Shown piece by piece: positions 4,558 through 33,021 of a DNA stretch of 40,504 nt (position 1 is its first letter; each line of letters begins with the position of its first letter). The stretch lies in the IMG/VR virus record IMGVR_UViG_3300049825_000292, positions 1 to 40,504 of that record. One strand, 5' to 3'. This stretch comes from a virus. The notes below the pieces were generated by a model. That model ran no database searches and was not told where the DNA came from. It was given only the letters and a program-made list of their open reading frames with translations. The position numbers were made by a program, and so were the translations under genes.

Positions 4558-4582
4558 CTATAGTATAGCACAGCGCGTCAAT
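4558..4582 (-). promoter_or_regulatory. Putative late promoter, copy A (endolysin)
   Basis: On the minus strand this 25-bp element has ATTGAC, then CG, then GTG, then TATACTA and a final AG, and is 20/25 identical to the element at 32997-33021. TATACT (complement of 4562-4567) is preceded by TGC, so it is also an extended -10. The TTGACG block is only 8 bp from TATACT, too close to be a sigma70 -35. It could be an activator site. It lies 14 bp before the endolysin ATG. Confidence 0.6.
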
Positions 4583-4601
4583 AATCCGCCTACTACCGCC
4601 C

Positions 4602-4641
4602 GCACAAAACAGCAGCACCCCGCCGTATACGAGGTGCTGCT
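4602..4641 (-). terminator. Leftward terminator or attenuator upstream of the endolysin
   Basis: On the minus strand AGCAGCACC and GGTGCTGCT form a 9-bp stem (4633-4641 with 4611-4619) followed by GTTTTGTG. It lies between the leftward promoter at 4808-4836 and the late promoter at 4558-4582. It would end early leftward transcription before the endolysin. Confidence 0.65.
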
Positions 4642-4807
4642 AGCACTGGAACATCCCATGTTTTCTGTTGCCTCAATAGGTTGTTGCACCCGTTCGCCCT
4701 GGCACCTCCTTTCGCCTGATCAAAAGGATGGCCGCGCTGGTCGTCTGATGTGCCCTATTCACAACGCCAGTTATAGTAGTGAGAGAGACCGATCAGCGCG
4801 TACCACG
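4642..4807 (-). other. Leftward leader region with no convincing gene
   Basis: About 165 bp between the leftward sigma70 promoter and the terminator. No ORF with a credible start was found; a perfect AAAGGAGGTG in the minus sense (complement of about 4697-4706) has no start codon at a normal distance. The region could give a short untranslated RNA of roughly 190 nt. A plus-strand ORF here lacks a promoter and binding site and is not accepted. Confidence 0.4.
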
Positions 4808-4836
4808 AGTATAGCACCAGCCGCCGCGCCGGTCAA
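4808..4836 (-). promoter_or_regulatory. Leftward sigma70 promoter
   Basis: Minus strand TTGACC (complement of 4831-4836), 17-bp spacer, TATACT (complement of 4808-4813) with TGC just before it (extended -10). It diverges from the rightward promoter at 4900-4928, with three direct repeats between them. Confidence 0.75.
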
Positions 4837-4851
4837 CGGGTTGGTTAACGT

Positions 4852-4884
4852 CTGAACTATTCCTGAACTAAATCTGAACTATTC
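4852..4884. repeat. Three 11-bp direct repeats in the divergent control region
   Basis: CTGAACT starts at 4852, 4863 and 4874, exactly 11 bp apart (units CTGAACTATTC, CTGAACTAAAT, CTGAACTATTC). This phasing, one per helical turn, between two divergent promoters is what an operator array for a small repressor looks like. A replication role is possible but less likely. Confidence 0.75.
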
Positions 4885-4899
4885 GTTATTGATAACTAC

Positions 4900-4928
4900 T
4901 AGACAGTCAATAGGTTATGATGTATACT
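4900..4928 (+). promoter_or_regulatory. Early rightward promoter 1
   Basis: TAGACA (4900-4905), 17-bp spacer, TATACT (4923-4928). GTTAT/ATAAC motifs flank the -35 (4885-4889, 4892-4896, 4914-4918), forming an imperfect inverted repeat in the position of the perfect operator of promoter 2. Confidence 0.8.
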
Positions 4929-4957
4929 GTCATCAGTGGATAAGGGAATGAGGGAGA
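4902..4957 (+). repeat. Duplicated promoter-leader, copy 1
   Basis: A 56-bp segment matching 5443-5498 at 53 of 56 positions. It covers the spacer, -10, transcribed leader and ribosome binding site (AGGGAG). The leader from TATACT to the binding site is identical in both copies. Confidence 0.9.
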
Positions 4958-4963
4958 ACGAAG

Positions 4964-5169: not shown

Positions 5170-5454
5170 ATGAATAAAATCGAACTCGCCGCCCACTTCG
5201 GCATATCGCGCCAGCGCCTCCACCAGCTCATCCGCAGCGGCCACATTCGCCAAGACGCGAGCGGCGAATGGATACGGGTGCCAGCCCTGCCAGGCCGCAG
5301 AGCCAAGCGGCGACAGAGCTATGCCGCCATCGCTGATCAACTCGGCTATTGCATTCAAACCGTCGCCCGCATGGATCGGCGCGGGCGACTCGTGGATACG
5401 GGCGAGGGGTGGGATATTATTGAATTGTCATCTAAACCTATTGACAGTAAATAG
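5170..5454 (+). CDS. Tandem helix-turn-helix regulator
   Basis: A 94-residue basic protein with two HTH-like units: residues 3-28 (IELAAHFGISRQRLHQLIRS) and about 49-75 (SYAAIADQLGYCIQTVARM). Each resembles the MerR/excisionase-type HTH followed by a basic wing. TTGAGGA precedes the ATG. Its 3' end overlaps the operator-like inverted repeat (5431-5461) that covers the -35 of promoter 2, so it is a strong candidate to bind that site and regulate itself and downstream genes. It could act as the phage's Cro/CI-type switch, but no partner repressor was found. Confidence 0.75.
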   Translation: MNKIELAAHFGISRQRLHQLIRSGHIRQDASGEWIRVPALPGRRAKRRQSYAAIADQLGYCIQTVARMDRRGRLVDTGEGWDIIELSSKPIDSK

Positions 5455-5461
5455 GTTTAGA
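5431..5461. promoter_or_regulatory. Operator-like perfect inverted repeat over early promoter 2
   Basis: TCTAAACCTAT (5431-5441) and its exact complement ATAGGTTTAGA (5451-5461), 9 bp apart. The repeat covers the -35 (5441-5446) and most of the spacer, so a bound dimer would block RNA polymerase. It also lies in the last codons of the HTH gene. Confidence 0.85.
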
Positions 5462-5469
5462 TGTATACT
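5441..5469 (+). promoter_or_regulatory. Early rightward promoter 2, near consensus
   Basis: TTGACA (5441-5446), 17-bp spacer, TATACT (5464-5469): an almost perfect sigma70 promoter. The leader after it is a copy of the promoter 1 leader. Confidence 0.9.
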
Positions 5470-5498
5470 GTCATCAGTGGATAAGGGAATGAGGGAGA
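5443..5498 (+). repeat. Duplicated promoter-leader, copy 2
   Basis: Matches 4902-4957 at 53 of 56 positions. The duplicated unit brings promoter, leader and ribosome binding site, so the genes at 4964 and 5507 probably receive similar early expression. Confidence 0.9.
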
Positions 5499-5506
5499 CA
5501 CGACCA

Positions 5507-5722
5507 ATGCAAACCCTGATCACCAACGCCCGCACGCACTTTGCACCCATCACCGCGCCGGTAGTGTTGCCAGCCAAGCGCATTGAGTTTGACGCAGAGC
5601 TGAACGAATACGTTGTCTACTGCGGCGAAACGTTCGTCTGCTATACCAACACTGAGAACGAAGCGCAGCAAGCCTATAGCGATCATCTGGTGCGAACCCG
5701 GCCCCGGCTGGTGACGCGATGA
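5507..5722 (+). CDS. 71-residue early protein
   Basis: The first gene after promoter 2; AGGGAG is 9 bp upstream of the ATG. The mixed alpha/beta protein has a central ELNEYVVYCGETFVCYT segment and a basic C-terminus. Family not recognised. It overlaps the next gene by ATGA. The longer in-frame ORF starting at 5321 is rejected because it runs through the promoter. Confidence 0.7.
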   Translation: MQTLITNARTHFAPITAPVVLPAKRIEFDAELNEYVVYCGETFVCYTNTENEAQQAYSDHLVRTRPRLVTR

Positions 5723-5886
5723 CTGACCCGAAACCACACCCACTCGCACCGTTGATCGATACGGTGCGCTGGCCCACGCCAGCCGAGAGCGAAGCACTGA
5801 GAGAGCTACATCGCATACTAGGGGATTGCGTGCCAGGACTGCTGGCACTCAAAGAAAATAGTGAGCGAGCTACCGATCAAGAGTAG
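5719..5886 (+). CDS. 55-residue early protein
   Basis: A short gene coupled to the previous one by ATGA. The product has a Pro-rich start (MTDPKPHPLAPLIDTVRWPT) and then an acidic helix (AESEALRELHRILGD). Its stop lies inside a perfect hairpin (5863-5893), which may protect the mRNA or reduce flow to the next gene. Function unknown. Confidence 0.65.
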   Translation: MTDPKPHPLAPLIDTVRWPTPAESEALRELHRILGDCVPGLLALKENSERATDQE

Positions 5887-5893
5887 CTCGCTC
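5863..5893 (+). other. Hairpin across a stop codon
   Basis: GAGCGAGCTAC and GTAGCTCGCTC form an 11-bp perfect stem with a 9-nt loop, including the stop codon at 5884-5886. No T-run follows, so a stability or translational-insulation element is more likely than a terminator. Confidence 0.6.
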
Positions 5894-5909
5894 GGGAATG
5901 AGGATGAGG

Positions 5910-6251
5910 ATGTACGATGTTACCATATCAATGCAGAAGTTGCAAGCGGAGCTCGCCGAGTGCGACGCGGTATTGTCGCAGCCACTTCGGGCGATGTGGG
6001 TAGTTCAGTTAGTCCACGAGCTGGTAGGCGGCCGGAAGTGTTCCTGGGTGACAGGCTATCGCAGTCGCCACGCATCGCGGTTCGTGGCTGTGCTGCTCAG
6101 TGATGGCACCGTGAGTGTATGGGAGACCGAGCGCTACCAGCTCGATCGGCTCTTGGGGATTATCACGCCGGATACCACGCGCGCCGATGTGTGGCGCATG
6201 CGTCAGCAGGCAGCGTGGATACGGGCGAGTGAATTAGGATTAGTGATATAA
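5910..6251 (+). CDS. Hypothetical early protein, 113 residues
   Basis: Three in-frame ATGs occur at 5898, 5904 and 5910. The last is chosen because GAGGA (5900-5904) is 5 bp upstream of it. The protein has a coiled N-terminal helix, a central beta segment (RFVAVLLSDGTVSVWETERY) and a C-terminal helical region. Family not recognised. It lies in the early operon between a hairpin and another small gene. Confidence 0.65.
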   Translation: MYDVTISMQKLQAELAECDAVLSQPLRAMWVVQLVHELVGGRKCSWVTGYRSRHASRFVAVLLSDGTVSVWETERYQLDRLLGIITPDTTRADVWRMRQQAAWIRASELGLVI

Positions 6252-6263
6252 AGGGGGATGATC

Positions 6264-6620
6264 ATGGATCTTATTGATCTTGTTGGTCAACGCAACTTTG
6301 GCGGCATTGACTTTATTACGGATACCGGGGATGGTACTGCGGTTTGCTTCATGCTTGACGGTGTTACCTATGTGGTAACTGAAGACCCTGACGACGGATA
6401 CCGATCCATGCTAAAGGACATCCGCATTACTGATCAGTCAATAGTCAATCGGTTTGGGCCGATTGTGGTGAACGCGATCATGGGTGATGGCGTACTTCAG
6501 TTATTGGATGTTTCTACGCATCAAATAGTGTTTGAGGTTGGCACTGATTACACCGATGATTATTATCCATGCTTTGCCGCTCGTTTCCAGCCGCAGCATA
6601 TGACCTTAAATCAACAATAA
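6264..6620 (+). CDS. Hypothetical early acidic protein, 118 residues
   Basis: The ATG at 6264 is chosen over 6258 because GGGGG is 6 bp upstream of it but too close to the other. The product is acidic and beta-rich with many Asp residues (EDPDDGYRS, TDYTDDYYP). High acidity in a small early phage protein can mean DNA mimicry, but nothing here proves it. No known domain was recognised. Confidence 0.65.
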   Translation: MDLIDLVGQRNFGGIDFITDTGDGTAVCFMLDGVTYVVTEDPDDGYRSMLKDIRITDQSIVNRFGPIVVNAIMGDGVLQLLDVSTHQIVFEVGTDYTDDYYPCFAARFQPQHMTLNQQ

Positions 6621-6633
6621 CGCTGTCTCGCTT

Positions 6634-6650
6634 GGGCGGCGCAACCGCCC
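6634..6650 (+). other. Leader hairpin before the SSB-like gene
   Basis: GGGCGG and CCGCCC with a 5-nt loop form a small GC stem in the 80-bp gap upstream of the 6701 gene. No T-run follows. Confidence 0.45.
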
Positions 6651-6700
6651 GCCAGTGCTGCCGGATGTCCCGGATAGCCACAACGTAACAGGAGTACACC

Positions 6701-7534
6701 ATGACAGAGCACGACTATCTCCCCACTGAAACCGCGTATGAGGAGCAGACGACCGGCGGCGGCGATGGCCTCCCGCGTATGTACTGGATGAACGGCGAGC
6801 CGCGCGACAAGTCCCCTGGACGCTTCTGGATGGACGCAGAGCGCGCCGAAAGTGCAGGATTATCAATCCTACCCAAGCCATGGACGCTTGTCGAGCACAC
6901 CTTTAAGCGCGGCGAGACGGCGAATCTCTATGTCAGTCCAGCGCTGTATATTGCGCCGATCTCATGGCGGCAACAGAACTTCATCAAGAACGCGAGCGGC
7001 GGCGTGGAATCGTGGATAGAGGAGCGGAAGTTTGCCAAGCTCGCACCGAATGAAGGGATCGCTTTTGAGATGCTTTGCCTAGTGCAAGGCATTGAGCAGC
7101 CCATGGTATTGTCGCTGAAGTCCACCAAGGCAAGCATGGCATGGGCGGCCAATATTCTCCCAGAGTATAGCAAGCTGCGCACTGAGATCAAGAAGTCGCG
7201 TACCGGACAGGTAATACCGCCGTGGTGGTTCTGGCTGGCAATCCGCAGCGCCATTGGCGACAAGGACAAGAAGCCAATCTACGAGACAATCAACGGATCG
7301 GTGATTACCCCGCCGATCTGGGTTGCGCCGGATAACCTTCACGACCGCGAGACATGGAAGTCCATGTACGTTGGCACTGAGATTGCCGCCGCTGGTGAGG
7401 CCGCCTATGTCGAGATCGGCAAAGCATGGGCAGCCAAGAAGATCAGCGAGGGCTACAGCGCACAGCCGGACGCGCCAGCCGCCAATGGACGCAACGTGCC
7501 ACAGGCATACACTGAGGACGAAGCGCCGTTCTAG
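6701..7534 (+). CDS. Putative ssDNA-binding/recombination protein with SSB-type tail
   Basis: A 277-residue protein. The body has a conserved-looking segment with PISWRQQNFIKNASGG and a Trp-rich stretch (PPWWFWLAIRSAIGDKDKK). After a Pro/Ala/Gly linker the C-terminus ends TEDEAPF, which matches the acidic, Phe-terminated tip of bacterial and phage single-stranded DNA binding proteins, the site that recruits replication partners. CAGGAG lies 7 bp before the ATG. It is the last gene before a strong terminator and is followed by the replication gene. The SSB role is inferred from the tail and context; the OB fold is not obvious by eye. Confidence 0.65.
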   Translation: MTEHDYLPTETAYEEQTTGGGDGLPRMYWMNGEPRDKSPGRFWMDAERAESAGLSILPKPWTLVEHTFKRGETANLYVSPALYIAPISWRQQNFIKNASGGVESWIEERKFAKLAPNEGIAFEMLCLVQGIEQPMVLSLKSTKASMAWAANILPEYSKLRTEIKKSRTGQVIPPWWFWLAIRSAIGDKDKKPIYETINGSVITPPIWVAPDNLHDRETWKSMYVGTEIAAAGEAAYVEIGKAWAAKKISEGYSAQPDAPAANGRNVPQAYTEDEAPF

Positions 7535-7544
7535 GGGTGGTAGC

Positions 7545-7580
7545 AGAGCGCCGATCCAGTGGATCGGCGCTCTCTTTTTA
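7545..7580 (+). terminator. Strong Rho-independent terminator
   Basis: AGAGCGCCGATCCA (7545-7558) pairs with TGGATCGGCGCTCT (7560-7573), leaving a small loop after opening the tip, and is followed by CTTTTTA. It closes the first early operon. Confidence 0.93.
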
Positions 7581-7583
7581 GGC

Positions 7584-7613
7584 TTGACACTTATGTTATA
7601 GCTATGTTATACT
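7584..7613 (+). promoter_or_regulatory. Early rightward promoter 3 with direct repeats
   Basis: TTGACA (7584-7589), 18-bp spacer, TATACT (7608-7613). The spacer and -10 hold TATGTTATA twice, 11 bp apart (7593 and 7604), with a third GTTAT at 7614. These could be sites for the RHH protein encoded immediately downstream. Confidence 0.85.
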
Positions 7614-7641
7614 GTTATGGTATTCATATAGGAGAACTGCT

Positions 7642-7824
7642 ATGGATGATACCACCCAAAAGAAGGTGCTCGTTGCGTTTCAAGAGTGGCCCGACGTGCT
7701 TGCAGAGCTTGATGCACTGGCACTCGCAACCGGCGTTAGTCGGGGTGCGATGATTCGCATGCTGATCCGCGCCGCCATCAGGGAAGCTGCCGAGAAGATC
7801 ACCGCAACGCCGCAAACGAATTAG
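7642..7824 (+). CDS. Ribbon-helix-helix regulator
   Basis: A 60-residue protein with a short N-terminal strand (KKVLVAFQEW), then helix A (DVLAELDALALATG) and helix B (SRGAMIRMLIRAAIREAAEKI), the RHH (CopG/Arc) layout with the typical VSRG turn. AGGAG is 7 bp upstream of the ATG. The promoter just upstream contains tandem TATGTTATA repeats in phase with one helical turn, which suits cooperative RHH dimers, so autoregulation of the replication operon is likely. Confidence 0.8.
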   Translation: MDDTTQKKVLVAFQEWPDVLAELDALALATGVSRGAMIRMLIRAAIREAAEKITATPQTN

Positions 7825-7835
7825 GAGCGTATGGT

Positions 7836-10109
7836 ATGGATGACGCAACACGTCAGATCATTGATACGCTCCAACCGTATCGTAACATGAAACTCGGTGC
7901 GAACCGATACAACACGCCATGGCGGGTCAATGCTGATGGCCCCGCTGATGGCGGTACGCTTGTGGTTGAAACCGACCCAGCCTACGGGCTAGGGTTAAAG
8001 TGGTTTGATCACAAGGATGGCACTGCTGGCAATGGTTGGACGCTAGCAAAGCTGCTCGGCATTCAGATCGGCGGCAAGCCCGCAACGAAGGAATTACCCT
8101 ACCAAAGCCTAACGGACTATGCCCATACCCATGGCGTTGATGTGTCCGTGTTCCAGGATGCGGGATGGGTTGAAACCAAGCACAACGGTTATTTGTGTTT
8201 CAAGTTCCCAACAGCAACCGGATACCGCTACCGCTACGCAGACCCAGCCGCCGCAGGTGCAAAGTACAAAAGCGACGTAGGGTATACGCCGTGCTGGTAT
8301 GGACTAGAACGCGCCGTCAAACTTGCTGGGGATGGCCCGCTTATTATCTGCAATGGCGAGCCGTCAACGATCGCGGCACAATACCATAACGTTGCCGCAT
8401 GCTGTGTGACCGGCGGCGAAAAGAGTAGCTTTGCAACCGAGATCATGGCGCAATTGCAGAGCGTGTGGAGCGGCCCGGTATTGATCGCCTATGATTGCGA
8501 CGTTACCGGCAGACGTGCAAGCAAGGCGCTTGCGGGGAAGCTGCGAAGCGCCGGAATACACGCACAGGCCATCGATCTACGAGGGTCTGACGGTTACGAT
8601 GTTGCCGACTTCTGTCGTCTGCATAACGGCAGCAGCGCCAGCGCGATCTTGTCTCTCCCGGCGCTTATGGAGCAAGAGTATACCACAGGTGAGATTGTGG
8701 TATCAAAGCAGCTCCCGCTAGCCAAGGACGTTACTCCACTCCCTGAGACTATCAGTGCCGCCGCACTATCGATTAAGGTGTTTGATCCGCTCCATTGGAC
8801 GGTTGATGGGCTGATGCCAGAGGGCGCGTGCCTCCTGGCAGCCAAGCCAAAAGCCAAGAAATCATGGCTAGCACTCGCAACCGCGATAGCCGTCGCAATG
8901 GCTGGTAAGGCGCTCGGCCATTACGATGTAGCACCAGGCGATGTGCTGTATCTTGATCTTGAGAGTAACCAGCGCCGCATGCAATCCCGTCTCAAGAGCA
9001 TGATCATTAATAAGGCATGGCCGGATAACCTGCACTTTGCGACCAAGTGGGGCCGGGGGGATTCGTGCCTCACGATGATACAGCAATGGGTAGAGCAAAA
9101 CCCGACCACCCGCCTAATTGTAATTGACATCCTGGCTCGTGTTAGGCCAATGCGGGATCCGAAGGCCGATCCGTATGAGCAAGATTACACATTTCTGCAA
9201 GCAATCAACGAGTTAGCCGAAACCCTACGGATCACTATTTTGATCATCCATCACACCCGAAAAAGCAAATCGGCTGATGATATTTTTGAGGATGTGTCAG
9301 GCACTCAGGCCATCACCGGCGCTGTTGCGACCATATGGATGCTCACCCGCAATCAGGACAACCCTGACGAACAGCTATTGCATTTGCGCGGGCGTGATTT
9401 GATCGATGAAGAACCATTGGCGATCAAGTGGGATGCGTATACCTGCCAACATATCATGGTGGCCAGTGGTGCAGAAGCATCGAGCACCGCTGAACGCCGA
9501 AAGATACTTGATGCTATGGACGACGAATCAGAGTACCAGGTGAAAGAACTCGCATCTCTTTGTGGCAAGTCCATGAAGGCCATTGACAATCTGTTGCGCA
9601 GGCTGCTCGACGACAACGCCATTCAGCGAACCGGGCGCGGGCGCTATGCCAAAATACCAAAACTACACGATCCGCGTGGATTGCGTGGATTGCGTGGATT
9701 TGATGGAGAGAGTGGATTACGTGGATTAGATCAGGGAGAAATCCACACGGATCAGGGAGAAATCCACGGCAAATCCACAAATCCACACAAATCCACAGAG
9801 GGGGATGTGGATATTTTTTCCGCATCAGGAAGCGCTAAACCGACCCTAAAAAGTGAAATCCACGAAATCCACGCAGATTCACTAAAAGGACGTTTTCGCG
9901 TGGTTTCGCTCGAATCGGTGCCCACTGAGGACATTACCGATAGCATGCCTGCGGATTGGAAGTCTGGAGACGACTGCATTGTGATTGTGCATGACCCGTC
10001 ATCAGTGAAGCGCCCATGGATCGTTGTGGTAGAGGAAACGGGGCGGCGGTTGACTGCTGGCAAAACAATCGAAGAAGCACAGCGACTTGCCGTGCCCTAC
10101 GCCGCATAA
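7836..10109 (+). CDS. Primase-helicase: TOPRIM plus RepA/RecA-like ATPase
   Basis: A 757-residue replication protein. Residues about 165-262 look like a TOPRIM domain (ICNGEPS with E175, and IAYDCDVTG with D220/D222). Residues about 325-530 form a RepA-type hexameric helicase core: P-loop-like AAKPKAKKS (335-343), LDLES, RLIVIDILA (Walker B, 427-431) and IHHTRKSK. Residues about 553-607 form a winged helix. Residues about 611-683 are a low-complexity linker encoded by the iteron cluster, and a small C-terminal domain follows. The N-terminal part (1-160) carries no obvious primase zinc motif. Primase-helicase activity is inferred from the domain pair. It is the main replication gene. Confidence 0.88.
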   Translation: MDDATRQIIDTLQPYRNMKLGANRYNTPWRVNADGPADGGTLVVETDPAYGLGLKWFDHKDGTAGNGWTLAKLLGIQIGGKPATKELPYQSLTDYAHTHGVDVSVFQDAGWVETKHNGYLCFKFPTATGYRYRYADPAAAGAKYKSDVGYTPCWYGLERAVKLAGDGPLIICNGEPSTIAAQYHNVAACCVTGGEKSSFATEIMAQLQSVWSGPVLIAYDCDVTGRRASKALAGKLRSAGIHAQAIDLRGSDGYDVADFCRLHNGSSASAILSLPALMEQEYTTGEIVVSKQLPLAKDVTPLPETISAAALSIKVFDPLHWTVDGLMPEGACLLAAKPKAKKSWLALATAIAVAMAGKALGHYDVAPGDVLYLDLESNQRRMQSRLKSMIINKAWPDNLHFATKWGRGDSCLTMIQQWVEQNPTTRLIVIDILARVRPMRDPKADPYEQDYTFLQAINELAETLRITILIIHHTRKSKSADDIFEDVSGTQAITGAVATIWMLTRNQDNPDEQLLHLRGRDLIDEEPLAIKWDAYTCQHIMVASGAEASSTAERRKILDAMDDESEYQVKELASLCGKSMKAIDNLLRRLLDDNAIQRTGRGRYAKIPKLHDPRGLRGLRGFDGESGLRGLDQGEIHTDQGEIHGKSTNPHKSTEGDVDIFSASGSAKPTLKSEIHEIHADSLKGRFRVVSLESVPTEDITDSMPADWKSGDDCIVIVHDPSSVKRPWIVVVEETGRRLTAGKTIEEAQRLAVPYAA
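9676..9872. repeat. Iteron cluster, candidate replication origin inside the helicase gene
   Basis: GTGGATT occurs at 9676, 9685, 9694, 9712 and 9721, mostly 9 bp apart. Its complement AATCCAC occurs at 9740, 9761, 9772, 9780, 9790, 9857 and 9866. An 18-bp unit (GATCAGGGAGAAATCCAC) is repeated at 9729 and 9750. The right-hand part is AT-richer (9811-9817 ATATTTT). Clustered short repeats inside a replication gene recall the lambda origin within gene O. Confidence 0.75.
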
Positions 10110-10118
10110 GGAGTTGCC

Positions 10119-11120
10119 ATGCCATTTACCGCGTACATTGATCAGGCACTTGTAACCATTCGCGACTATCGCGGCGAGTGGAAGGGCCGTCTCACGTGTC
10201 CTGAATGCGGCGATAAAATGCACCATGTATCGTTAACGCTTGATCCGTTTCGTGTTGCATTCTATCGGCACAACCCATCAGGAACCCCCGGCGCGCGGTC
10301 GTGCTCGTTTGCTGATGAAACACCAGAGCACCGGCAGGCAAAGCAAACGCTATTAGCTGAAGGAATGCGCTTCTTTCAGCGCGGCGCGGGTGAGCTTGAG
10401 TACAGTTTTGAGGTCAACGGTCGCAAGCGGCGCGCTGATGTGTATCTACCCCAGCAAGATCGTCAATACCCCGTTGCACTCGAAGCGCAGTATAGCCCGA
10501 TTGATTTTGCTGGCGAGGATGGCCGTAGTATTGAGGAGCGCACGAGGGACTATCACGCGGCTGGAATGTATATTATCTGGTGTATTCCGCCGAAACGTGG
10601 AAGCGATAAACTAAAGGAAGCACTCAAGCGTGTCTACGGGTGTTACGGCGAATTGAGCAGCGACGGCGAAACGGTGCAATTCATCGGCACAAACGCGCTA
10701 TTCCTGAACCAACACCCGATGCGCTGGATGCAGAGCCGTAGGGAGTATATTGAGAAGCGCGAGACGACCCGCCGAAACGAAGCGGAGCGGATTGATCGCG
10801 AGCGAGCGGCGGCAATAGCTGCACGAAACGCACGAGAACAAGCGGAAGTAGAAGAACATACACAATGGATGCGAAAGCAGCAGCCAACCACAGAGGATCG
10901 GGAGTACATCGATCGCGGCGGCAAACTGCCAGTGAACATCTATAGGAAGCCCGATCCTATGCCCGTTCTGCGCAAAGCAGCAGATCACCTGGTCTATGTT
11001 CCCCAAACCGATACCGGCAGACTTCGCGATAAACTGATGGCATTCCTTGGCTGGCCGCGTGAAACCTATACGATGGATGAACTCAAGGCATATGCACGAG
11101 AGCGAGGATACGATGACTGA
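10119..11120 (+). CDS. CoiA-like nuclease
   Basis: A 333-residue protein resembling the competence CoiA family. An N-terminal CPEC zinc-knuckle pair (27-30) with CSF at 62 precedes the TPEHRQAK helix (H71, K75). The PD-(D/E)XK-like core follows: YSFEVNGRKRRADVYLP with D107 and VALEAQ with E122/Q124. A C-terminal Arg/Glu-rich helical region (about 205-250) may bind DNA or partners. In phages, CoiA-like proteins lie with replication and recombination genes, as here, immediately after the primase-helicase. Nuclease activity is inferred. Confidence 0.75.
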   Translation: MPFTAYIDQALVTIRDYRGEWKGRLTCPECGDKMHHVSLTLDPFRVAFYRHNPSGTPGARSCSFADETPEHRQAKQTLLAEGMRFFQRGAGELEYSFEVNGRKRRADVYLPQQDRQYPVALEAQYSPIDFAGEDGRSIEERTRDYHAAGMYIIWCIPPKRGSDKLKEALKRVYGCYGELSSDGETVQFIGTNALFLNQHPMRWMQSRREYIEKRETTRRNEAERIDRERAAAIAARNAREQAEVEEHTQWMRKQQPTTEDREYIDRGGKLPVNIYRKPDPMPVLRKAADHLVYVPQTDTGRLRDKLMAFLGWPRETYTMDELKAYARERGYDD

Positions 11121-11601
11121 CACTGAACTCTTTCCCGACGTAATCACCCAGACGCCGCTATTCGACAAGCCCGCGTTGATCGTCTGCCTGGTCTGCGGGC
11201 GCGGTGGGTGGGCGGATATGAGCCGCCCGCTGATCTGCGATAGGTGCGGCGCTGATGTGCCTGCGGCGCAAGCGCTTGTCGATTACAAGCTGGTCAACGC
11301 CGAAAAGAACCACGAAGCGGCATGGGATAAATGGGCCGCTGCGCTTGATGGGACGGACGCAGCGACACGCAAGCACTACGATCTGTATGATGACGTGCGT
11401 ATAGAGCGTGATGTCGCTCATGCCGTCCCAACTGATCCGGCAAACGTGGCAAAGGCGAATAATGCCGAGCGCCTGGCGCTGGCTGGCGACACCAAGCCGG
11501 TATTTGATCTCATTCGGCTGTGGCTGGACTATCAAGGAAAACAAGAAGCCTGGCAGATGGTACGCGAATGGGCAAAGCAATGTGATGAGGTGCTACGATG
11601 A
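11113..11601 (+). CDS. Zinc-ribbon protein, 162 residues
   Basis: Starts ATG at 11113 inside the end of the previous gene. The product has a CLVCGRGGWADMSRPLICDR zinc ribbon (CxxC...CxxC) near residues 21-44, then a helical region with no known motif. It could be an adaptor or transcription-related factor. The larger in-frame ORF starting at 11047 is rejected. Function unknown. Confidence 0.65.
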   Translation: MTDTELFPDVITQTPLFDKPALIVCLVCGRGGWADMSRPLICDRCGADVPAAQALVDYKLVNAEKNHEAAWDKWAAALDGTDAATRKHYDLYDDVRIERDVAHAVPTDPANVAKANNAERLALAGDTKPVFDLIRLWLDYQGKQEAWQMVREWAKQCDEVLR

Positions 11602-11816
11602 ACTTCCAATCAATCCTCGACAAGATCGCCGCCCTCGTTGATCATCCGCCGCTGGTGCTGAAGTGCTGCCCGTTCTGCGGGCGGAGCGCGGTCGTCAGCA
11701 AGTTTGTTGCCCACTGGATCGTAGAATGCGCGGCGTTCAGTGAGTGCGGCTGTCACGGCCCGATCCGTGATACGGCGGTTGACGCGGCGGCGGCGTGGAA
11801 TGCGAGGGCAGAATGA
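11598..11816 (+). CDS. Lar-like restriction-alleviation zinc-ribbon protein
   Basis: A 72-residue protein with the Lar-family pattern: CCPFCG near residue 24, a second Cys group (VECAAFSECGCHGP) and a C-terminal AAAAWNAR motif. Lar-type proteins of Rac prophage and other phages alleviate type I restriction, partly by stimulating host methylation. The gene is directly followed by a DNA methyltransferase, which fits an anti-restriction pair. ATGA overlaps link it to both neighbours. Confidence 0.7.
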   Translation: MNFQSILDKIAALVDHPPLVLKCCPFCGRSAVVSKFVAHWIVECAAFSECGCHGPIRDTAVDAAAAWNARAE

Positions 11817-12433
11817 AACCCTATTACGAACACGCAGGCATCACCATATTCCACGGCGATTGCCTTGACGTGCTGCCGACGTTGGCAAAAGAGGATTGCG
11901 TACTTGTTACCGATCCACCATATGGCATTGAAGCAGCAAAGCGCGGCGCGCATAGCTCAATACGAGATAACGATCTGTGGCCTAACAATATTTGGGATAA
12001 CAATCGACAACCAACAGCGGTAGCACTGGCATTGAGCATATGTCGCGAGGGTGCGGTATGGGGCGGAAACTTCTACACGGACGTTTTACCGGTTTCGTCG
12101 GGTTGGATTGCTTGGGTAAAGCCAGAAGCAGAAACGGGTTTCACGCTTGCAGACATGGAATTGTGCTGGACAAGCCAACCGATAGCAGCCCGCATCAAAC
12201 GCTACGCGCGGCGTGATGGCAATCTGCACCCAACACAGAAGCCGGTAGCGATTATGAAATGGACAATAACGTTTCTGAATGAGGGAGTCATTCTTGATCC
12301 ATTTATAGGCAGTGGTAGTACCCTCGTAGCAGCAAAGCAACTTGGACGGAAGGCTATCGGCATAGAACTGGATGAGCGCTATTGCGAGATCGCCGCCAAT
12401 CGTCTCCAACAAGAAGTGATGGAGCTTCTATGA
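11813..12433 (+). CDS. DNA methyltransferase (N6-adenine/N4-cytosine type)
   Basis: A 206-residue orphan modification enzyme. Motif IV is DPPYG at residues 34-38, and the SAM-binding motif I is DPFIGSGST (162-170) near the C-terminus, the order of the beta class. It is short but contains both key motifs, and HPTQKP (139-144) matches the family. No endonuclease partner is adjacent, so it probably protects phage DNA or marks it. The start at 11813 overlaps the previous stop; a longer ORF to 11795 is rejected. Target base and sequence cannot be told. Confidence 0.88.
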   Translation: MKPYYEHAGITIFHGDCLDVLPTLAKEDCVLVTDPPYGIEAAKRGAHSSIRDNDLWPNNIWDNNRQPTAVALALSICREGAVWGGNFYTDVLPVSSGWIAWVKPEAETGFTLADMELCWTSQPIAARIKRYARRDGNLHPTQKPVAIMKWTITFLNEGVILDPFIGSGSTLVAAKQLGRKAIGIELDERYCEIAANRLQQEVMELL

Positions 12434-12735
12434 TCCAGCTATCGATCTTCGACGAGCCAGAAGCCGCCACGCCGCGCTGCCGGGACTGTGGCGAGCCGCT
12501 AAACACCTATCGCGGTACTGAGCTGCCGCTGAATGGATTGTGCGCTACGTGCCTGCGGATGCGGCCCAGGCGCGCCGATGGCTCGTACTTGACCGCGCGC
12601 ATTTACCCGCACGATTGGCGGGATGACCCGGTATGGCAAGGCGGCAAATCGTACCCGCTCTACTACCAGGACAGCGACGGCGTGGTGTGGCAGAAGAAAC
12701 ACGATGTGAGTGGGGAGTATCAGCGATGGGCATAG
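12430..12735 (+). CDS. Zinc-ribbon protein, 101 residues
   Basis: Starts ATG at 12430, overlapping the methyltransferase stop. It has CRDCGEPL and CATCLRMRP pairs (CxxC...CxxC) at residues about 15-41, a small zinc-ribbon, then a Tyr/Trp-rich tail. Function unknown. It is one of several phage zinc-ribbon miniproteins in this string. Confidence 0.65.
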   Translation: MIQLSIFDEPEAATPRCRDCGEPLNTYRGTELPLNGLCATCLRMRPRRADGSYLTARIYPHDWRDDPVWQGGKSYPLYYQDSDGVVWQKKHDVSGEYQRWA

Positions 12736-12950
12736 CAAAAGAGTACAAGGTTGCGCCGCGTTGGAAGCGCTACATCGACTGCTCCAAACTCGTAAACGCA
12801 CGCGGGGAAGTAATAGCGGAGATTAGTTGGCAAGGCGAATGGGAAGTCAAAACCCGCAACCGCAGCGGCGGCTGGCTCTACGCCTACGCCGCAAGCCTAG
12901 CCGCTGCCAAGCGCAAGGCGGCGAAGATGATTAGGGAGGAGGCGAAGTGA
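12726..12950 (+). CDS. Small basic protein, 74 residues
   Basis: Starts ATG at 12726 (MGIAKEYKVAPRWKRYID) and ends in an Ala/Lys helix. A central WQGEWEVKTRNRSGGWLYAY block is beta-like. The basic charge suggests nucleic-acid contact, but no known family was recognised. Confidence 0.6.
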   Translation: MGIAKEYKVAPRWKRYIDCSKLVNARGEVIAEISWQGEWEVKTRNRSGGWLYAYAASLAAAKRKAAKMIREEAK

Positions 12951-13393
12951 ACGAGATGACGCTCGAAGAATACAACGCGCGCTACAAACCACGGAAGGCG
13001 TCGTACCGCAGCAGCGAGGCCGATGAGCATATCGCGTTGATCAAATGGATTGACGTGATGACCGGACGCGATGACCGCCTGCGCTGGCGGTTTCACCCCG
13101 CCAACGGCGAATTGCGCGACATCAAGACCGCAGTCAAGCTCAAGCGAATGGGCGTCAATCCAGGGGTTCCTGATCTGTTGTTGCCCATCCATACACGCAC
13201 CTACGCCGGGCTGGCAATTGAACTCAAGGCCGGGAATAATGTTGCCAGTGACGATCAAGCTGCGTGGCTGCTGCACCTGCGCAGTGAGAACTGGTACGCG
13301 CAAGTATGCGTTGGCTGGCTGGCAGCAGCTCGATTGATCGTGTGGTATCTCGATATGCAAATTGACGCTGATGAATGGAGGCAACTGCAATGA
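12947..13393 (+). CDS. VRR-NUC endonuclease
   Basis: A 148-residue protein matching the phage VRR-NUC (PD-(D/E)XK) family: E25 in SSEADEHIALIKW, HPANGE (50-55), KRMGVNPGVPDLLLP with D76, AIELKAG with E92 and K94, Q104, and a C-terminal VCVGW. Such enzymes resolve or cut branched DNA and usually lie in phage replication regions. The start is GTG at 12947 overlapping the previous TGA; ATG at 12956 is an alternative. Confidence 0.88.
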   Translation: MNEMTLEEYNARYKPRKASYRSSEADEHIALIKWIDVMTGRDDRLRWRFHPANGELRDIKTAVKLKRMGVNPGVPDLLLPIHTRTYAGLAIELKAGNNVASDDQAAWLLHLRSENWYAQVCVGWLAAARLIVWYLDMQIDADEWRQLQ

Positions 13394-13773
13394 CCTATCG
13401 TCGCCATTACCCCAAGTCGCAACGATTCTGCGCGCGCTGTGTCGTCAACAGCACCCGCGCATGTAGCAAGCTCTGTGTAGCCTGCCGTGCGTTAGGATGG
13501 CGCTGGTGCAGTCCAGGGCAGCACGTCGTGAACGGCGCAATGAACAACAAACACCGCTGTAAAATCTGCCACGCGACTATGTACCGTGAGCGCTATCGAG
13601 CGGCGCAACCGCAGCCGCCAGCGGGGTACATTCGCCTCAGTGATGCAGCGCGGGCGCTTGGCTTCTCGCGATCGGCATTGACCTATCAAATCAGGGCGGG
13701 AATATTCCCGTATCCCACATGGCGCGCCAAGGCGATCCCACGCAGCCCGTGGTATGTGGAGGTGAACAGATGA
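13390..13773 (+). CDS. Zinc-ribbon plus HTH protein
   Basis: A 127-residue protein. The N-terminal half has four or more Cys pairs (CARC, CVAC, CKICHAT) as in a zinc-binding domain. The C-terminal half contains an HTH of the MerR/excisionase kind (YIRLSDAARALGFSRSALTYQ) followed by a basic end. It may be a sequence-specific DNA-binding regulator or a nuclease accessory. ATGA couplings on both sides place it in the same operon as VRR-NUC. Confidence 0.7.
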   Translation: MTYRRHYPKSQRFCARCVVNSTRACSKLCVACRALGWRWCSPGQHVVNGAMNNKHRCKICHATMYRERYRAAQPQPPAGYIRLSDAARALGFSRSALTYQIRAGIFPYPTWRAKAIPRSPWYVEVNR

Positions 13774-13985
13774 CTACATGTACGAGTTGTGGTGTGACAC
13801 TAACGCCAATCGAAACCCACGGCGATTACGATTGGCCGATGTGTTGGACGTGCGATCTTGCATGGCAGAACGACCCATGGAACATTGAAATATTTGTTCA
13901 CGAAACAACGCCCGATGGCGTTATCCATCTCAAGCAAGGCCGCGATTTTAAATTGTTTTTTGATAGTAAGGAGGATGCGCTATGA
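13770..13985 (+). CDS. Zinc-ribbon miniprotein, 71 residues
   Basis: ATG at 13770 overlaps the previous stop. The N-terminal half has CTSCG and CWTCDL pairs (a CxxC...CxxC ribbon), then a beta-hairpin-like C-terminal half. Function unknown; another member of the zinc-ribbon group. Confidence 0.6.
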   Translation: MTTCTSCGVTLTPIETHGDYDWPMCWTCDLAWQNDPWNIEIFVHETTPDGVIHLKQGRDFKLFFDSKEDAL

Positions 13986-14434
13986 CCTACGATTCACGAA
14001 AGGATACACTTGCACACATTGCGGACGTTGCTAGCAATATTCATCAGGTAATCGGCTCGCTTCATCAGCGATCTATGGAACACGATCTGAGTAAATTAGC
14101 TGAACCTGAGAAATCGCTTTTTGATGAGTACACGCCAAAACTCCGCAATAGCACCTATGGCAGTGAGGAATATGAGCGATACCGTGCCGAGATGGGCGCG
14201 GCGCTCCAACACCACTACGCGCATAACTCGCACCATCCGGAGCACTATGAGAACGGCGTTGCAGGGATGACGCTGCTTGATCTTATCGAAATGCTGTGCG
14301 ACTGGAAGGCCGCAACAAATCGCCATGCCGACGGCAATATCGGCAAGAGCTTGACGATCAACAAGCAGCGCTTTGGGCTTGATGATCAGTTGGCAAGCAT
14401 TCTTGAGAACACCATACGCGAGATGGGATGGTGA
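13982..14434 (+). CDS. DUF5662-like protein with HD-type motif
   Basis: A 150-residue protein with an HDLSKL motif (near residue 34), HHYAHNSHHPEHY (about 77-89) and MTLLDLIEMLCDWKAAT (about 95-111). This spacing of HD and HH with DxxEMxxDW resembles the DUF5662 phage family, which looks like a degenerate HD-type hydrolase. Metal-dependent phosphohydrolase activity is possible. Identification is by motif memory, not by search. Confidence 0.65.
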   Translation: MTYDSRKDTLAHIADVASNIHQVIGSLHQRSMEHDLSKLAEPEKSLFDEYTPKLRNSTYGSEEYERYRAEMGAALQHHYAHNSHHPEHYENGVAGMTLLDLIEMLCDWKAATNRHADGNIGKSLTINKQRFGLDDQLASILENTIREMGW

Positions 14435-14438
14435 GCAG

Positions 14439-14582
14439 ATGAAACGTCTCTGCATTGACTGCCAGCGCCCAACCTCGCGCGGCAGAACCGGCACGATGGC
14501 AACCAACTATCTGCGCTGTCTCGTCTGTGAGACGGCGCGCACGCTGCGAACGTGGAAGTATTGGCGGAGGGCGACCCAATGA
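14439..14582 (+). CDS. Zinc-ribbon miniprotein, 47 residues
   Basis: Starts MKRLCIDCQRPTSRGRTG and has CIDC and CLVC pairs. Very small and basic. Its ATG follows the previous stop by 4 bp and its stop overlaps the next ATG. Probably a structural zinc finger; function unknown. Confidence 0.6.
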   Translation: MKRLCIDCQRPTSRGRTGTMATNYLRCLVCETARTLRTWKYWRRATQ

Positions 14583-14764
14583 ACGAACCCGATCCCAACA
14601 GCACGCGCAGTATTGCGCGTGAACTCCAGGCGCGGGGTGTGCAGGTGTCGCACACCGCGATCAATCAGCAGCCGCCCCGCGTCATCTGGGCAGACGGTAA
14701 GGCGGTCGGGTGGGTAAAGGTCAAGCTCGGCTGGCCAGCGAAAAAGAGAGGATGGATACGATGA
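14579..14764 (+). CDS. Small HTH-like protein
   Basis: A 61-residue protein with an HTH-like stretch STRSIARELQARGVQVSHTA (about residues 6-25) and a basic tail with WVKVKLGWPAKK. It looks like the resolvase/transposase HTH fold without a catalytic domain. A DNA-binding accessory role is inferred. Confidence 0.6.
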   Translation: MNEPDPNSTRSIARELQARGVQVSHTAINQQPPRVIWADGKAVGWVKVKLGWPAKKRGWIR

Positions 14765-15159
14765 AAACTGACAACGAACTGAACCGGCTGATTGCGGAGC
14801 GGGTACTCAATGAACCACTAGAACCGCCGTGCGGCTACTATCACGAAACCGACGCGGCGCAACGTAGCACTGACGGATGGAGCGGCTGGTGCTACAACTG
14901 TGATTGCTCTATCAGCGAAGTAGCGCCCGAACCCCGCCGCTACTGCACCGACCCCGCCGCGCGTGATACGCTTGAGCAACATCTGATTGCAACTGGACAC
15001 ACTGTCGTGCTTTATAGCGGCTTCCATATAAAACACACCGCATTGGTAGGTTTTCGCGACAACAGGAGACCGCCAGCGCGTGGCGACGACGACACCGAAA
15101 AAGGCCACGCACTCGTGCTCGCAACCCTCGCGGCGTATGGCGTGGATATTGACACTTGA
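14761..15159 (+). CDS. Hypothetical early protein, 132 residues
   Basis: ATG at 14761 overlaps the previous stop (ATGA); an in-frame ATG at 14752 is an alternative. The protein has an N-terminal helix (NELNRLIAERVLNEPLEP), a CYNCDCS cluster and a central PRRYCTDPAARDTLEQHL helix. It vaguely recalls the phage ABA-sandwich (DUF2591) family, where a similar region follows a helical start. Last gene of this unit before a new promoter. Confidence 0.6.
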   Translation: MKTDNELNRLIAERVLNEPLEPPCGYYHETDAAQRSTDGWSGWCYNCDCSISEVAPEPRRYCTDPAARDTLEQHLIATGHTVVLYSGFHIKHTALVGFRDNRRPPARGDDDTEKGHALVLATLAAYGVDIDT

Positions 15160-17949: not shown

Positions 17950-18438
17950 ATGGAATACGGTGCATATTGGATGACGGTGTTGGTCGTGCTGCTGCTGCTG
18001 GCGATGGGCGCAGAGCGGGCTATTGAAATCTACAACGATGTGCGCCGTTATGTCCATCGGTGGCAATCTGCACAGATCGAACCGCGCATCGCTCGTTATG
18101 TCGAGAACAGAGAGAAAACAAATGAATACAACAGTGGTACTGAATACCGCGATATACCTGATACCTATCAGCCAGAACCAGCCAGTACAAACGCTGCAAG
18201 TACCGGTATTTCACTTGCGAATACCGCCGATCTTGTACGCCACCTCTCAGGGCTTCGTAAGGCCAATGGTGACTATGCGATGAGCGGTAACCGGATTGTG
18301 GCAGCGGTTGAGATGGGGCGCAATGAGGTGCTAGCCATTGTGCGAGAGGTGCGTGGCAACCCACCCGAACCAGCCGAGCCGTACAATCCAACAAAGCACT
18401 TGCTCTTGGACGGCGTCAAGCGATGGATACCACGATAG
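17950..18438 (+). CDS. Single-pass membrane protein with C-terminal HTH-like domain
   Basis: A 162-residue protein with one N-terminal transmembrane helix (WMTVLVVLLLLAMGAERAI), a basic juxtamembrane region, a flexible Thr/Ser/Ala linker, then a HTH-like block (ADLVRHLSGLRKANGDYAMS then GNRIVAAVEMGRNEVLAIVR). It closes the membrane trio with 16451-17107 and 17431-17940. GAGGG is 5 bp before the ATG. Confidence 0.65.
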   Translation: MEYGAYWMTVLVVLLLLAMGAERAIEIYNDVRRYVHRWQSAQIEPRIARYVENREKTNEYNSGTEYRDIPDTYQPEPASTNAASTGISLANTADLVRHLSGLRKANGDYAMSGNRIVAAVEMGRNEVLAIVREVRGNPPEPAEPYNPTKHLLLDGVKRWIPR

Positions 18439-18464
18439 GGCGTCCAGCCACTGAGAGGATGATG

Positions 18465-18794
18465 ATGAGTAGAGAGCAACAGTACCTTGATCGCCTTGCT
18501 GAGATACAGACGGTTGTAAATCTGCCACGGGTCGCACTTGCCACTATCCCTAATGACGCACCATGGCATCTGCTCACTGAACGGGAGCGCGACATCATTG
18601 GTCGCCGCAAAAACGGCGACACGCTGCGCGCGATTGGTCAAGCGCTTGGGGTGACTAGTGACCGAGTGCGACAGATTGAACAGCGGGCATTGCGTATTTT
18701 ACATCGGCGGTCAGGGTATGCAACTCGTCAAAAGCAATACGCGCGCGACCCGTCACTAGTCGGCACCAATCGATTACATCCACCAACTACCTGA
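18465..18794 (+). CDS. Sigma70 region 4-like transcription factor, late-activator candidate
   Basis: A 109-residue protein. Residues about 36-81 match sigma70 region 4: LTERERDIIGRRKNGDTLRA followed by IGQALGVTSDRVRQIEQRAL, the conserved HTH that in sigma factors contacts the -35. No region 2 is present, so it is not a full sigma factor. Phage late regulators of the ArpU kind have the same domain. The start at 18465 has GAGAGG 6 bp upstream; three consecutive ATGs occur. It is the last early gene and overlaps the late transcript end by 8 bp. Confidence 0.8.
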   Translation: MSREQQYLDRLAEIQTVVNLPRVALATIPNDAPWHLLTERERDIIGRRKNGDTLRAIGQALGVTSDRVRQIEQRALRILHRRSGYATRQKQYARDPSLVGTNRLHPPTT

Positions 18795-30941: not shown

Positions 30942-30949
30942 ACAACCTC

Positions 30950-31327
30950 CTACGGGCGGTTCAGCACAATCGCGGCCTGACGGGTAATCGTTGGCGATGT
31001 GCCTGCACCTGCGAACGTCGATACCAAGCGCACATAACGCTTGTTCGTGCGGAACGGAATGAACTGCTCGCCGGTCTGCGTGGTGGTGCTCAGGGTAATG
31101 ACGTCCGATGCGCCGCTGGTGAGCGCAAAGAACGTTGCATTGTCATCTGAGTGTTCCACACTGAATACCACGGTATTGCTACCAGAGGCATTCGCGGCGG
31201 CAGTGAAGTTGACCTGCGCAACCAGCCCGCGTGTCGGGGTTTGCTTCAGATCAAGGCCGGTGCTGTTGGTCGTTGCAGTAATCACGGACGACGCCTGCAA
31301 CACCAGATTCGTATCACGAATTGCCAT
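30950..31327 (-). CDS. Capsid decoration-like beta protein
   Basis: A 125-residue Thr/Ser/Ala/Val-rich protein that follows the major capsid gene. Its pattern (VVFSVEHSDDNATFFALTSG, and RYVRLVSTFAGAG) resembles small trimeric capsid decoration or virion beta-sandwich proteins. No known domain recognised by name. Confidence 0.7.
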   Translation of the reverse strand: MAIRDTNLVLQASSVITATTNSTGLDLKQTPTRGLVAQVNFTAAANASGSNTVVFSVEHSDDNATFFALTSGASDVITLSTTTQTGEQFIPFRTNKRYVRLVSTFAGAGTSPTITRQAAIVLNRP

Positions 31328-31338
31328 TGGTGTTGCTC

Positions 31339-32346
31339 CTAGCTGTACTTGATGTCATACACGCGGCCGAGGCTGCGTGTTGACTGATTCATGAGGCCGC
31401 CCGCCCAATCAACGAGAGTGCGATACGTCACACCGTTCTCCAGCAGCCCCAAGTCTTGAGCAATCAACGGCTGCATCTGCCAACCCTGGAAATGCTCAGT
31501 GTTGTAGTTGACGGCGTACACGCTGGTCATGGTGCTGGCACCGTCAACGCCTGCGGCGGTTTCGGTGTTGGTAATGATGTTGGTGCTCTGATCGGCCTTC
31601 TTGCCAATGTCACGAACAAGCGCGTTCTTGTAGGTCATCACGCCGCGCCCGATCTGATCGGTTGCAGTCGAGAACCCGCCCTGACCTGAGAACGTGCGCG
31701 CCAGGCGATCCCAGCGTCGCGACATCTCAGCGCTCATATACAGCACCACGCCGTTGCCGTCCGGGCTGTCCACTGACCAGAGCAGCTGGTCAACGAACTC
31801 CAGGAATGCGCCGAATGTGGCGGCTGTGGCCGATGCGGTCACAACCACGCCGCCCGCGTCAATCTTGTTCTCAGATCGCACACCGAACACCGTTGGGTTA
31901 TCGATGCGCGAGCGGATACCGACAATCGCCTTGGTGTCGCCCGTGCCATGGTTGTTGTTGATGAACTTGTCATTGAAATCATATGCGGCGGCCTTCATAT
32001 AGATGCCGGTCTGCGCCGCGCGAGGATCGGTGATCTGGTTCTCATCCATTACCAGGAGCTTGTCTACATCGATGTAGTTACGCAGCGTGTAGATTGATTC
32101 CTGGTAAGGGGTTGGGGTGCCAGCAACGGTCGTGCCCTCATCATTGATGTTTGCCCATGTGACGCTTGGGAGATTGCCTTCCCATCGCACGCCATTGACA
32201 TACAGGCTCTTTTTGTCCGTGAACGGAATATCACGGGCCATGACCGAGCCATTATCGATGAGGGAGAATGTGACCGCCTGCACCAGCGGGTCATTAGACA
32301 GCATCGCATACTGTGCGAGCGTCAATGCATTGGCGCTGATAGCCAT
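31339..32346 (-). CDS. Major capsid protein, HK97 fold
   Basis: A 335-residue protein with the major-capsid pattern: early LTLAQYAMLSNDPLVQAVTF, PSVTWANINDEGTTVAGTPT, a central DFNDKFINNNHGTGDTKAIV and a C-terminal RTLVDWAGGLMNQSTRSLGR. It follows the scaffold gene. No protease gene is seen, so assembly probably follows the SPP1-like route with a removable scaffold. Confidence 0.92.
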   Translation of the reverse strand: MAISANALTLAQYAMLSNDPLVQAVTFSLIDNGSVMARDIPFTDKKSLYVNGVRWEGNLPSVTWANINDEGTTVAGTPTPYQESIYTLRNYIDVDKLLVMDENQITDPRAAQTGIYMKAAAYDFNDKFINNNHGTGDTKAIVGIRSRIDNPTVFGVRSENKIDAGGVVVTASATAATFGAFLEFVDQLLWSVDSPDGNGVVLYMSAEMSRRWDRLARTFSGQGGFSTATDQIGRGVMTYKNALVRDIGKKADQSTNIITNTETAAGVDGASTMTSVYAVNYNTEHFQGWQMQPLIAQDLGLLENGVTYRTLVDWAGGLMNQSTRSLGRVYDIKYS

Positions 32347-32357
32347 GGGTTATTCTC

Positions 32358-32897
32358 CTACTTTTTCCACTGAATATCACTAAGGCGCGGCGGATTCTTC
32401 GGATCGAATACCGGGGTACTCGTTCGGGTGGCCGCCGGATTGGTCGGAGCGGTTGTGGGTACGGTTGGGGCGGGCGCTGCTCCCACCGGGGGAGACTGCA
32501 CCTTCAGCAACTCTAAAAGCTTTTGGGCGTCGGCTTTTAACTCAGCTGGAGTGTCGCCGCGCAGCCGGTCGGCTAATTCCAGGGGTAATCCAAGCTCGCG
32601 CGCAATCGCGTGTTGTCGCTGGGTTGCCTCATAGCGGGCCACCGCAGCCGCAAGATCGGCGGCCTTGGTTTGCTCCGCTTCGTACAGAGCTTTGAAGTCG
32701 CCTTGCTCTTTCAGCCGCTTGGCTTCCGCCTCCTGCTGTGCAGTCTCGGCACTACGCAGGGTGGTGCGGTACTTTGCGGCCTCGGATCGGGCCTCTTTTA
32801 GCTCGCGCTCCAATATCGCCAGTCGCGCGGATGGGTCAGCGTCAACCACCGGGGCTGGTGCTGGTGCTTCCTGAGCAGGCGCGGTCGGTTCCGTCAT
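32358..32897 (-). CDS. Scaffolding protein
   Basis: A 179-residue protein starting MTEPTAPAQEAPAPAPVVDA, then a long charged coiled coil (SARLAILERELKEARSEAAK...), and a Pro/Thr/Ala end. This acidic, coiled-coil composition immediately upstream of the capsid gene is the standard scaffold profile. GGAG lies 8 bp before the ATG; the longer ORF from 33020 is rejected because it would run through the terminator hairpin. Confidence 0.87.
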   Translation of the reverse strand: MTEPTAPAQEAPAPAPVVDADPSARLAILERELKEARSEAAKYRTTLRSAETAQQEAEAKRLKEQGDFKALYEAEQTKAADLAAAVARYEATQRQHAIARELGLPLELADRLRGDTPAELKADAQKLLELLKVQSPPVGAAPAPTVPTTAPTNPAATRTSTPVFDPKNPPRLSDIQWKK

Positions 32898-32913
32898 GGG
32901 GGTGTTCTCCAGA

Positions 32914-32954
32914 TAAAACAAAAGGCGCGCAATCCCACCAGGGGATCGCACGCC
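32914..32954 (-). terminator. Rho-independent terminator upstream of the scaffold gene
   Basis: On the minus strand a 13-bp stem (complement of 32942-32954 with 32924-32936, two G-T pairs) with loop CTGGT and a following T-run TTTTGTTTT. It lies between the promoter at 32997-33021 and the scaffold gene, so transcripts that start there must read through it. Confidence 0.85.
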
Positions 32955-32996
32955 GTTAACCACGTAGGGTGTTAGGACATGGGTATCTTCAATTGT

Positions 32997-33021
32997 CTCT
33001 AGTATATCACTTCGTGTCAAT
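32997..33021 (-). promoter_or_regulatory. Putative late promoter, copy B (scaffold)
   Basis: 25 bp, 20/25 identical to the element upstream of the endolysin, with ATTGAC, CG, GTG and TATACTA blocks in the same spacing. TATACT (complement of 33001-33006) has TGA before it. The transcription start would be about 32994, 40 bp before the terminator hairpin. Confidence 0.6.

Follow-up and report, generated by a model that had tools for sequence, protein, structure and literature searches.

Two copies of a conserved late-promoter element in a phage genome and their possible use in antitermination

What is the role of a 25-bp element that stands twice on the minus strand of a phage genome, at 4582-4558 (ATTGACGCGCTGTGCTATACTATAG, site A) and 33021-32997 (ATTGACACGAAGTGATATACTAGAG, site B)? 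Site A lies immediately 5' of the endolysin gene, and site B is located between the portal and the scaffold gene. The window analysed here is the whole 40,504-nt record IMGVR_UViG_3300049825_000292, and all coordinates refer to it unless another record is named. Comparison with related phages supports the view that the element is a conserved phage late promoter, for which start sites can be predicted. Overall, it appears, with a probability of roughly 0.6, that both sites are late promoters where a phage antiterminator similar in action to Q or AlpA loads at the TTGAC block onto host RNA polymerase and thereby lets the polymerase pass a terminator gate.

The two elements share the block order ATTGAC...GTGnTATACTA, and reading both of them confirmed the identity of 20/25 that had been claimed from the sequence alone. 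Such identity is weak proof by itself, since ungapped 20/25 matches between 25-mers are frequent in 40 kb (406 overlapping matches on the same strand and 190 on opposite strands); therefore, the case rests on position and conservation. With up to three mismatches allowed, the shared pattern matches the window at these two places only, and none of 100 dinucleotide shuffles contained a match. The spaced form TTGAC-N8/9-TATACT occurs twice in the window versus 0.005 expected from dinucleotide shuffles, and twice versus 0.000 in G012, a full-length relative of 41,392 bp. The gap between TTGAC and TATACT is 9 nt in the window, or 8 nt if it is counted from the hexamer TTGACN.

A search of related phages had been named as a check by the sequence-only reading, and the motif is indeed kept in them. 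In G012, whose terminase is 79% identical and whose head genes are unrelated, TTGAC-N7-10-TATACT occurs exactly twice and at gene boundaries that correspond to those of the window, directly before the endolysin gene and between the portal and scaffold genes. Site B is also kept in the close relatives L003 and L004, the major capsid proteins of which are 90% and 72% identical, respectively. Of the 37 stretches obtained when IMG/VR was scanned with the motif alone, most were chance matches; in L133, L134/L144, and L140/L145, however, the motif stands where the portal gene meets the head genes and has a terminator behind it. L140/L145 have an additional variant, TTGCG-N8-TATACT, upstream of the endolysin gene. 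The head genes of the L133 and L134/L140 lineages are unrelated. Since the portals of L134/L144 and L140/L145 are 62-64% identical, these form a single lineage and the further lineages number two; records of lineages beyond G012 are mostly fragments. All the motif-bearing sets may have descended from one ancestral cassette.

Several other matches were also inspected. Upstream of its endolysin gene, L134 has TAGAC-N8-TATAGT, a diverged form with a hairpin behind it, which is suggestive only. L129/G024, a phage distantly related to G012, has TTGACCCGCTATGCTATACT followed by hairpins at its position 13592 (minus strand), past the end of the early genes and with no late gene adjacent. Matches such as those in L092, L116/L117, L124/L125, L147, and L122 were dismissed because of their coding or unrelated context, and L111 and L113, found by a leader-pattern search of IMG/VR, were AT-rich chance matches without the motif. 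No new relative was obtained from IMG/VR scans with the endolysin and with the G012 portal, or from a scan of genome_contigs with the large terminase. Scanning genome_contigs with the major capsid protein found one metagenome-assembled genome of Blastocatellia, in which the sequence before the scaffold gene has a terminator and lacks the motif.

How would such an element be read by a polymerase? Twelve promoter sites were compared, namely A and B of the window and the sites of the relatives, including the TTGCG variant. In all twelve, TTGAC or TTGCG stands 8-9 nt ahead of TATACT, and the TTGAC block spans -26/-25 to -22/-21 relative to the predicted starts. In the pooled records, part of which were selected for the presence of the motif, TTGAC was found 8-9 nt before TATACT twelve times and at the canonical spacing of 18 nt three times. 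Every hexamer located 15-19 bp ahead of TATACT was scored against the sigma-70 -35 consensus; the best match was 2-3/6 at every site, equal to random, versus 5-6/6 for four canonical promoters of the window. It had been argued from the sequence alone that TTGAC is not a -35, and the lack of any -35 better than random at 12/12 sites bears this out. The possibility that TTGAC is a -35 with a -10 located 17 bp downstream was rejected, since it fits window B only (GACAAT) and fails at the other sites inspected. TGn precedes the -10 at ten of the sites, both window sites included, and is missing at site B of L004 and of G012, where the spacing is 8 nt. Host polymerase would need help at least there, and apart from the -10 no block but TTGAC is constant. 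The placement of TTGAC supports the suggestion that a phage regulator would bind it beside the (extended) -10.

The relation of these promoters to their genes is marked by terminators. An intrinsic terminator follows within ~90 nt, ahead of the late gene, at 9/12 sites: window B, G012 A and B, L004 B, L134 B, L140 and G028 B, L133 B, and in weaker form G028 A. Among loci retrieved through protein similarity, the window being excluded, TTGAC-N8/9 before a TATA(A/C/G)T box was associated with a strong downstream terminator (p ~5e-6 within 130 nt and ~4e-8 within 260 nt), values that overstate independence since all positive sites came from three related records. A consensus fold of leader B from four relatives has 19 pairs, nine of which show compensatory double changes, six in the terminator stem and three in a small upstream hairpin. 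In L003, the terminator lies ~230 nt downstream of promoter B, displaced by a tRNA-like insert. This insert of ~165 nt (L003 5290-5460) has tRNA-like acceptor and T arms; ARAGORN predicted a tRNA-Trp with an 83-nt intron at a relaxed threshold only, and Rfam gave no match.

Since terminators stand between most of the promoters and their genes, the likely mechanism shifts from activation to antitermination. AlpA and lambda Q promoters, and in part that of GafZ, are laid out in this way, with an element near -25, between the -35 and -10 positions, and a terminator ahead of the genes; therefore, loading of an antiterminator is favoured. The sequence-only reading had proposed a dedicated late transcription switch at these elements; the conserved late promoter stands, but activation at the promoter now seems less likely than antitermination, the terminators having been overlooked.

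The gene layout of the window is as follows. Early genes occupy the plus strand at ~5170-18794, and the minus strand holds the late genes, which begin with the endolysin at 4544 and continue across the joined ends to 19137. The ends of the window (1-209 and 40278-40504) form a terminal direct repeat of ~91% identity, the difference being mostly an 18-bp indel (a tandem copy); as judged from this repeat, the record is probably a complete phage genome, circular or permuted, with uncollapsed ends. This gene order places site A at the head of the late operon and site B inside it.

A proposed mechanism can potentially be described as follows. Site A would drive the whole late operon, with the endolysin first, and site B would act again before the capsid genes, with the scaffold first. 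Host sigma-70 RNA polymerase would use the TATACT -10 without a -35, and TTGAC (~-26 to -22) is predicted to be contacted by a DNA-binding protein of the phage, which would load onto the polymerase while the latter is still at the promoter. At site B and most sites of the relatives, polymerase free of this protein would make an RNA of ~40-90 nt and halt at the terminator ahead of the late genes, and polymerase carrying the protein would read through in the manner of lambda Q, AlpA, and GafZ.

Some observations weigh against this scheme. Site A is a clear exception, as there is no terminator between the window promoter and the endolysin gene; in that case the protein would need to work at terminators deeper in the operon. 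Nor do the sites share a -10-like pause element, and none was seen by eye at the A sites or in the other lineages. A candidate stands only in leader B of the window family, where AAGATA (from ~+6) is common to the window, L003, L004, and G012 and GACAAT occurs at -3. Among those early proteins of the window and G012 that were scanned against PHROGs, no match to a known antiterminator family was found, the records of the other lineages being mostly fragments. The absence of such a match is weak evidence, however, because these families share no sequence similarity. The coordinates of the features are listed in Table 1.

Table 1. Features of the window that bear on the two promoter elements
Feature	Coordinates	Strand	Remarks
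Late promoter A	4558..4582	-	TTGAC 4581-4577 (~-26 to -22); extended -10 TGCTATACT 4570-4562; predicted start ~4555
Late promoter B	32997..33021	-	TTGAC 33020-33016; extended -10 TGATATACT 33009-33001; predicted start ~32994
Leader block GAAGATA	32984..32990	-	~+5 to +11 after start B; candidate -10-like pause element, putative function
Intrinsic terminator B	32924..32954	-	Strong; tail TTTTGTTTTA, 13 pairs, -24 kcal/mol; separates promoter B from scaffold; predicted terminated RNA ~75-80 nt
Scaffolding protein gene (phrog_233, E 7e-19)	32358..32897	-	First gene downstream of gate B
Small open reading frame (ORF), portal-scaffold interval	33007..33210	-	Stop codon within promoter B; no Pfam match
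Endolysin (Amidase_2, PF01510, E 2e-28)	3438..4544	-	First gene of late operon; predicted leader only ~11 nt
Strong intrinsic terminator	4610..4642	-	14 pairs; upstream of promoter A; would end RNA from the 4836-4808 promoter
Canonical sigma-70 promoter TTGACC-N17-TGCTATACT	4808..4836	-	Predicted ~190-nt RNA ending near 4610
Sigma-70 region 4-like protein (PF04545, E 9e-11)	18423..18794	+	Last early gene; start possible at 18423 or 18465
Cys-rich (putative zinc) and helix-turn-helix (HTH) protein	13375..13773	+	Alternative candidate regulator; HTH matches weak; putative function

The scaffold gene most likely starts at ATG 32897, which has the Shine-Dalgarno sequence GGAG upstream and is the same start as in L003; a TTG start of the ORF at 33020 is therefore spurious. 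Upstream of promoter A, the short terminated RNA predicted at 4836-4610 is reminiscent of the lambda 6S RNA region, and the matching place in G012 holds a tRNA-Gly(TCC) and a terminator. Site A of G012 is also preceded by a hairpin with a T-rich tail, equivalent to 4610-4642 of the window. On the plus strand, an early promoter region is present in two copies of 93% identity (4902-4961 and 5443-5503; TAGACA/TTGACA-N17-TATACT), the second of which is overlapped by a 35-bp inverted repeat (5429-5463) of operator-like appearance.

Which protein might bind TTGAC? The Cys-rich protein at 13375-13773 is 33% identical over 125 aa (E 4e-15) to the C-terminal half of a 264-aa protein of G012. The membrane-HTH protein at 16451-17107 (plus strand) is 44% identical to a G012 protein in the same place; it belongs to a run of membrane-like proteins, some with a C-terminal HTH, that closes the early genes (16451-18438, plus strand). 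Both are candidates only, on the basis of their DNA-binding look and their presence in G012. With regard to a phage-encoded single-subunit RNA polymerase, the early proteins comprise a primase/helicase of 757 aa as the largest and otherwise ORFs of <=333 aa, no search aimed at polymerase models having been made.

The sigma-region-4-like protein is the regulator that the sequence-only reading had put forward, and its match to PF04545 is real; its link to the motif is not supported. In this alternative, the protein would replace or reposition sigma region 4 on TTGAC, as in sigma appropriation. TTGAC does lie about one helical turn nearer the -10 than a normal -35, the protein has a clear region-4 HTH and is the last early gene product, and a resemblance to sigma region 4 has been described for the HTH of lambda Q (PMC7171158). 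However, G012 has both sites and no Sigma70_r4 match, and none was found in the motif-bearing records of the other lineages, which are mostly fragments. Conversely, the record L083/G011 encodes a relative of the protein and has no TTGAC-N7-10-TATACT. The protein was rejected as the regulator since G012 has both sites without it, and the alternative is considered doubtful; antitermination is likely a better description of the mechanism than an adaptor of the sigma-region-4 type. A single-sequence structure model of the protein had a predicted local distance difference test score (pLDDT) of 49 and was uninformative. Another possibility is a plain activated late promoter, where a phage activator at TTGAC recruits host polymerase and the terminators trim expression or stop upstream transcripts. 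Such activation would agree with the absence of a -35 from every site, and with window A and site A of L140, which lack a good terminator behind them. It leaves unexplained the strong covarying terminator before the first gene at most sites, which counts against it because a terminator there blocks the promoter's own genes; overall it appears unlikely.

The leader might instead be an RNA device, such as an attenuator, a small RNA, or a tRNA-like element, served by an ordinary promoter motif. Leader B is kept in sequence among the window, L004, and G012 and has the second small hairpin, and the L003 leader holds the tRNA-like insert found in the relaxed search. No Rfam family matches the leader, however, and the leaders of L133, L134, and L140 are dissimilar, yet the promoter block and the terminator persist in them, which makes an RNA device quite improbable. 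It could also be asked whether motif B is a product of coding constraint or coincidence, its 5' half closing a small gene (..IDTK*) and the remainder being chance. The small ORF has counterparts in L003, L004, G012, L133, L134, and G028 and is present in every lineage with motif B, and ATTGAC encodes Ile-Asp near its end in the window, L003, G012, L134, and G028. In L004 and L133, by contrast, TTGAC is retained though it stands in another reading frame of the overlapping ORF; therefore, coding alone fails to explain it and coding constraint on motif B was rejected. Moreover, window site A is within no such ORF, and the shuffle expectation given above is far from the two sites observed. This last explanation is hardly credible.

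Returning to antitermination, one may tentatively go further, though the odds are somewhat below even, and propose an antiterminator class of uncultured phages, outside the families searched, that loads via TTGAC without a -35 at two promoters per genome, one gating the whole late operon and the other the capsid genes. Two gates, if real, would give a separate boost to the most abundant proteins of the phage. Q-like antiterminators are hard to find by homology because there is no sequence similarity among them, and the signature of promoter plus terminator may offer another route to them in uncultured phages. Start-site mapping and reporter tests could be aimed precisely at the element.

How do these sites compare with known systems? 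The T4 middle promoters, served by MotA/AsiA, are alike in having a -10 box and an upstream phage-protein site that replaces a functional -35; however, the MotA box has its centre near -30 and differs in sequence from TTGAC, T4 is not known to have a terminator gate there, and no match to MotA/AsiA turned up in the family scans made. Lambdoid phages are not known to have more than one late promoter of the kind considered here. A similar arrangement, with an antiterminator element within the promoter region, then terminator(s), then the late operon, characterizes lambda pR' with Q and the late promoters of phages 21 and 82, whereas the present phage has two promoters, the second before the capsid genes, and no member of the Q families was found in it. 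The elements of GafZ and lambda Q also lie between the -35 and -10 (PMC11150451). GafZ, at the gene transfer agent promoter of Caulobacter, has such a putative element, a terminator in the head-tail cluster, and an antiterminator unrelated to Q in sequence; it differs in acting with GafY and IHF and in having its terminator after the first gene. The AlpA promoters of Pseudomonas aeruginosa (PalpB and PPA0807) share the element in the -35/-10 interval, the terminator ahead of the first gene, and the two target loci. The AlpA element GGGACG lies at -25 to -20 with every base important and a terminator directly downstream (PMC7969949, PMC9371919), and is nearly in register with the phage TTGAC. 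Q and AlpA both require a -10-like pause element; AlpA promoters have this and a -35, whereas the phage sites have neither a -35 nor a universal pause element, the recognition letters differ, and no AlpA-like protein was identified in the phage. In the AlpA, lambda Q, and GafZ literature compared, no arrangement with a second gate before the capsid genes is described.

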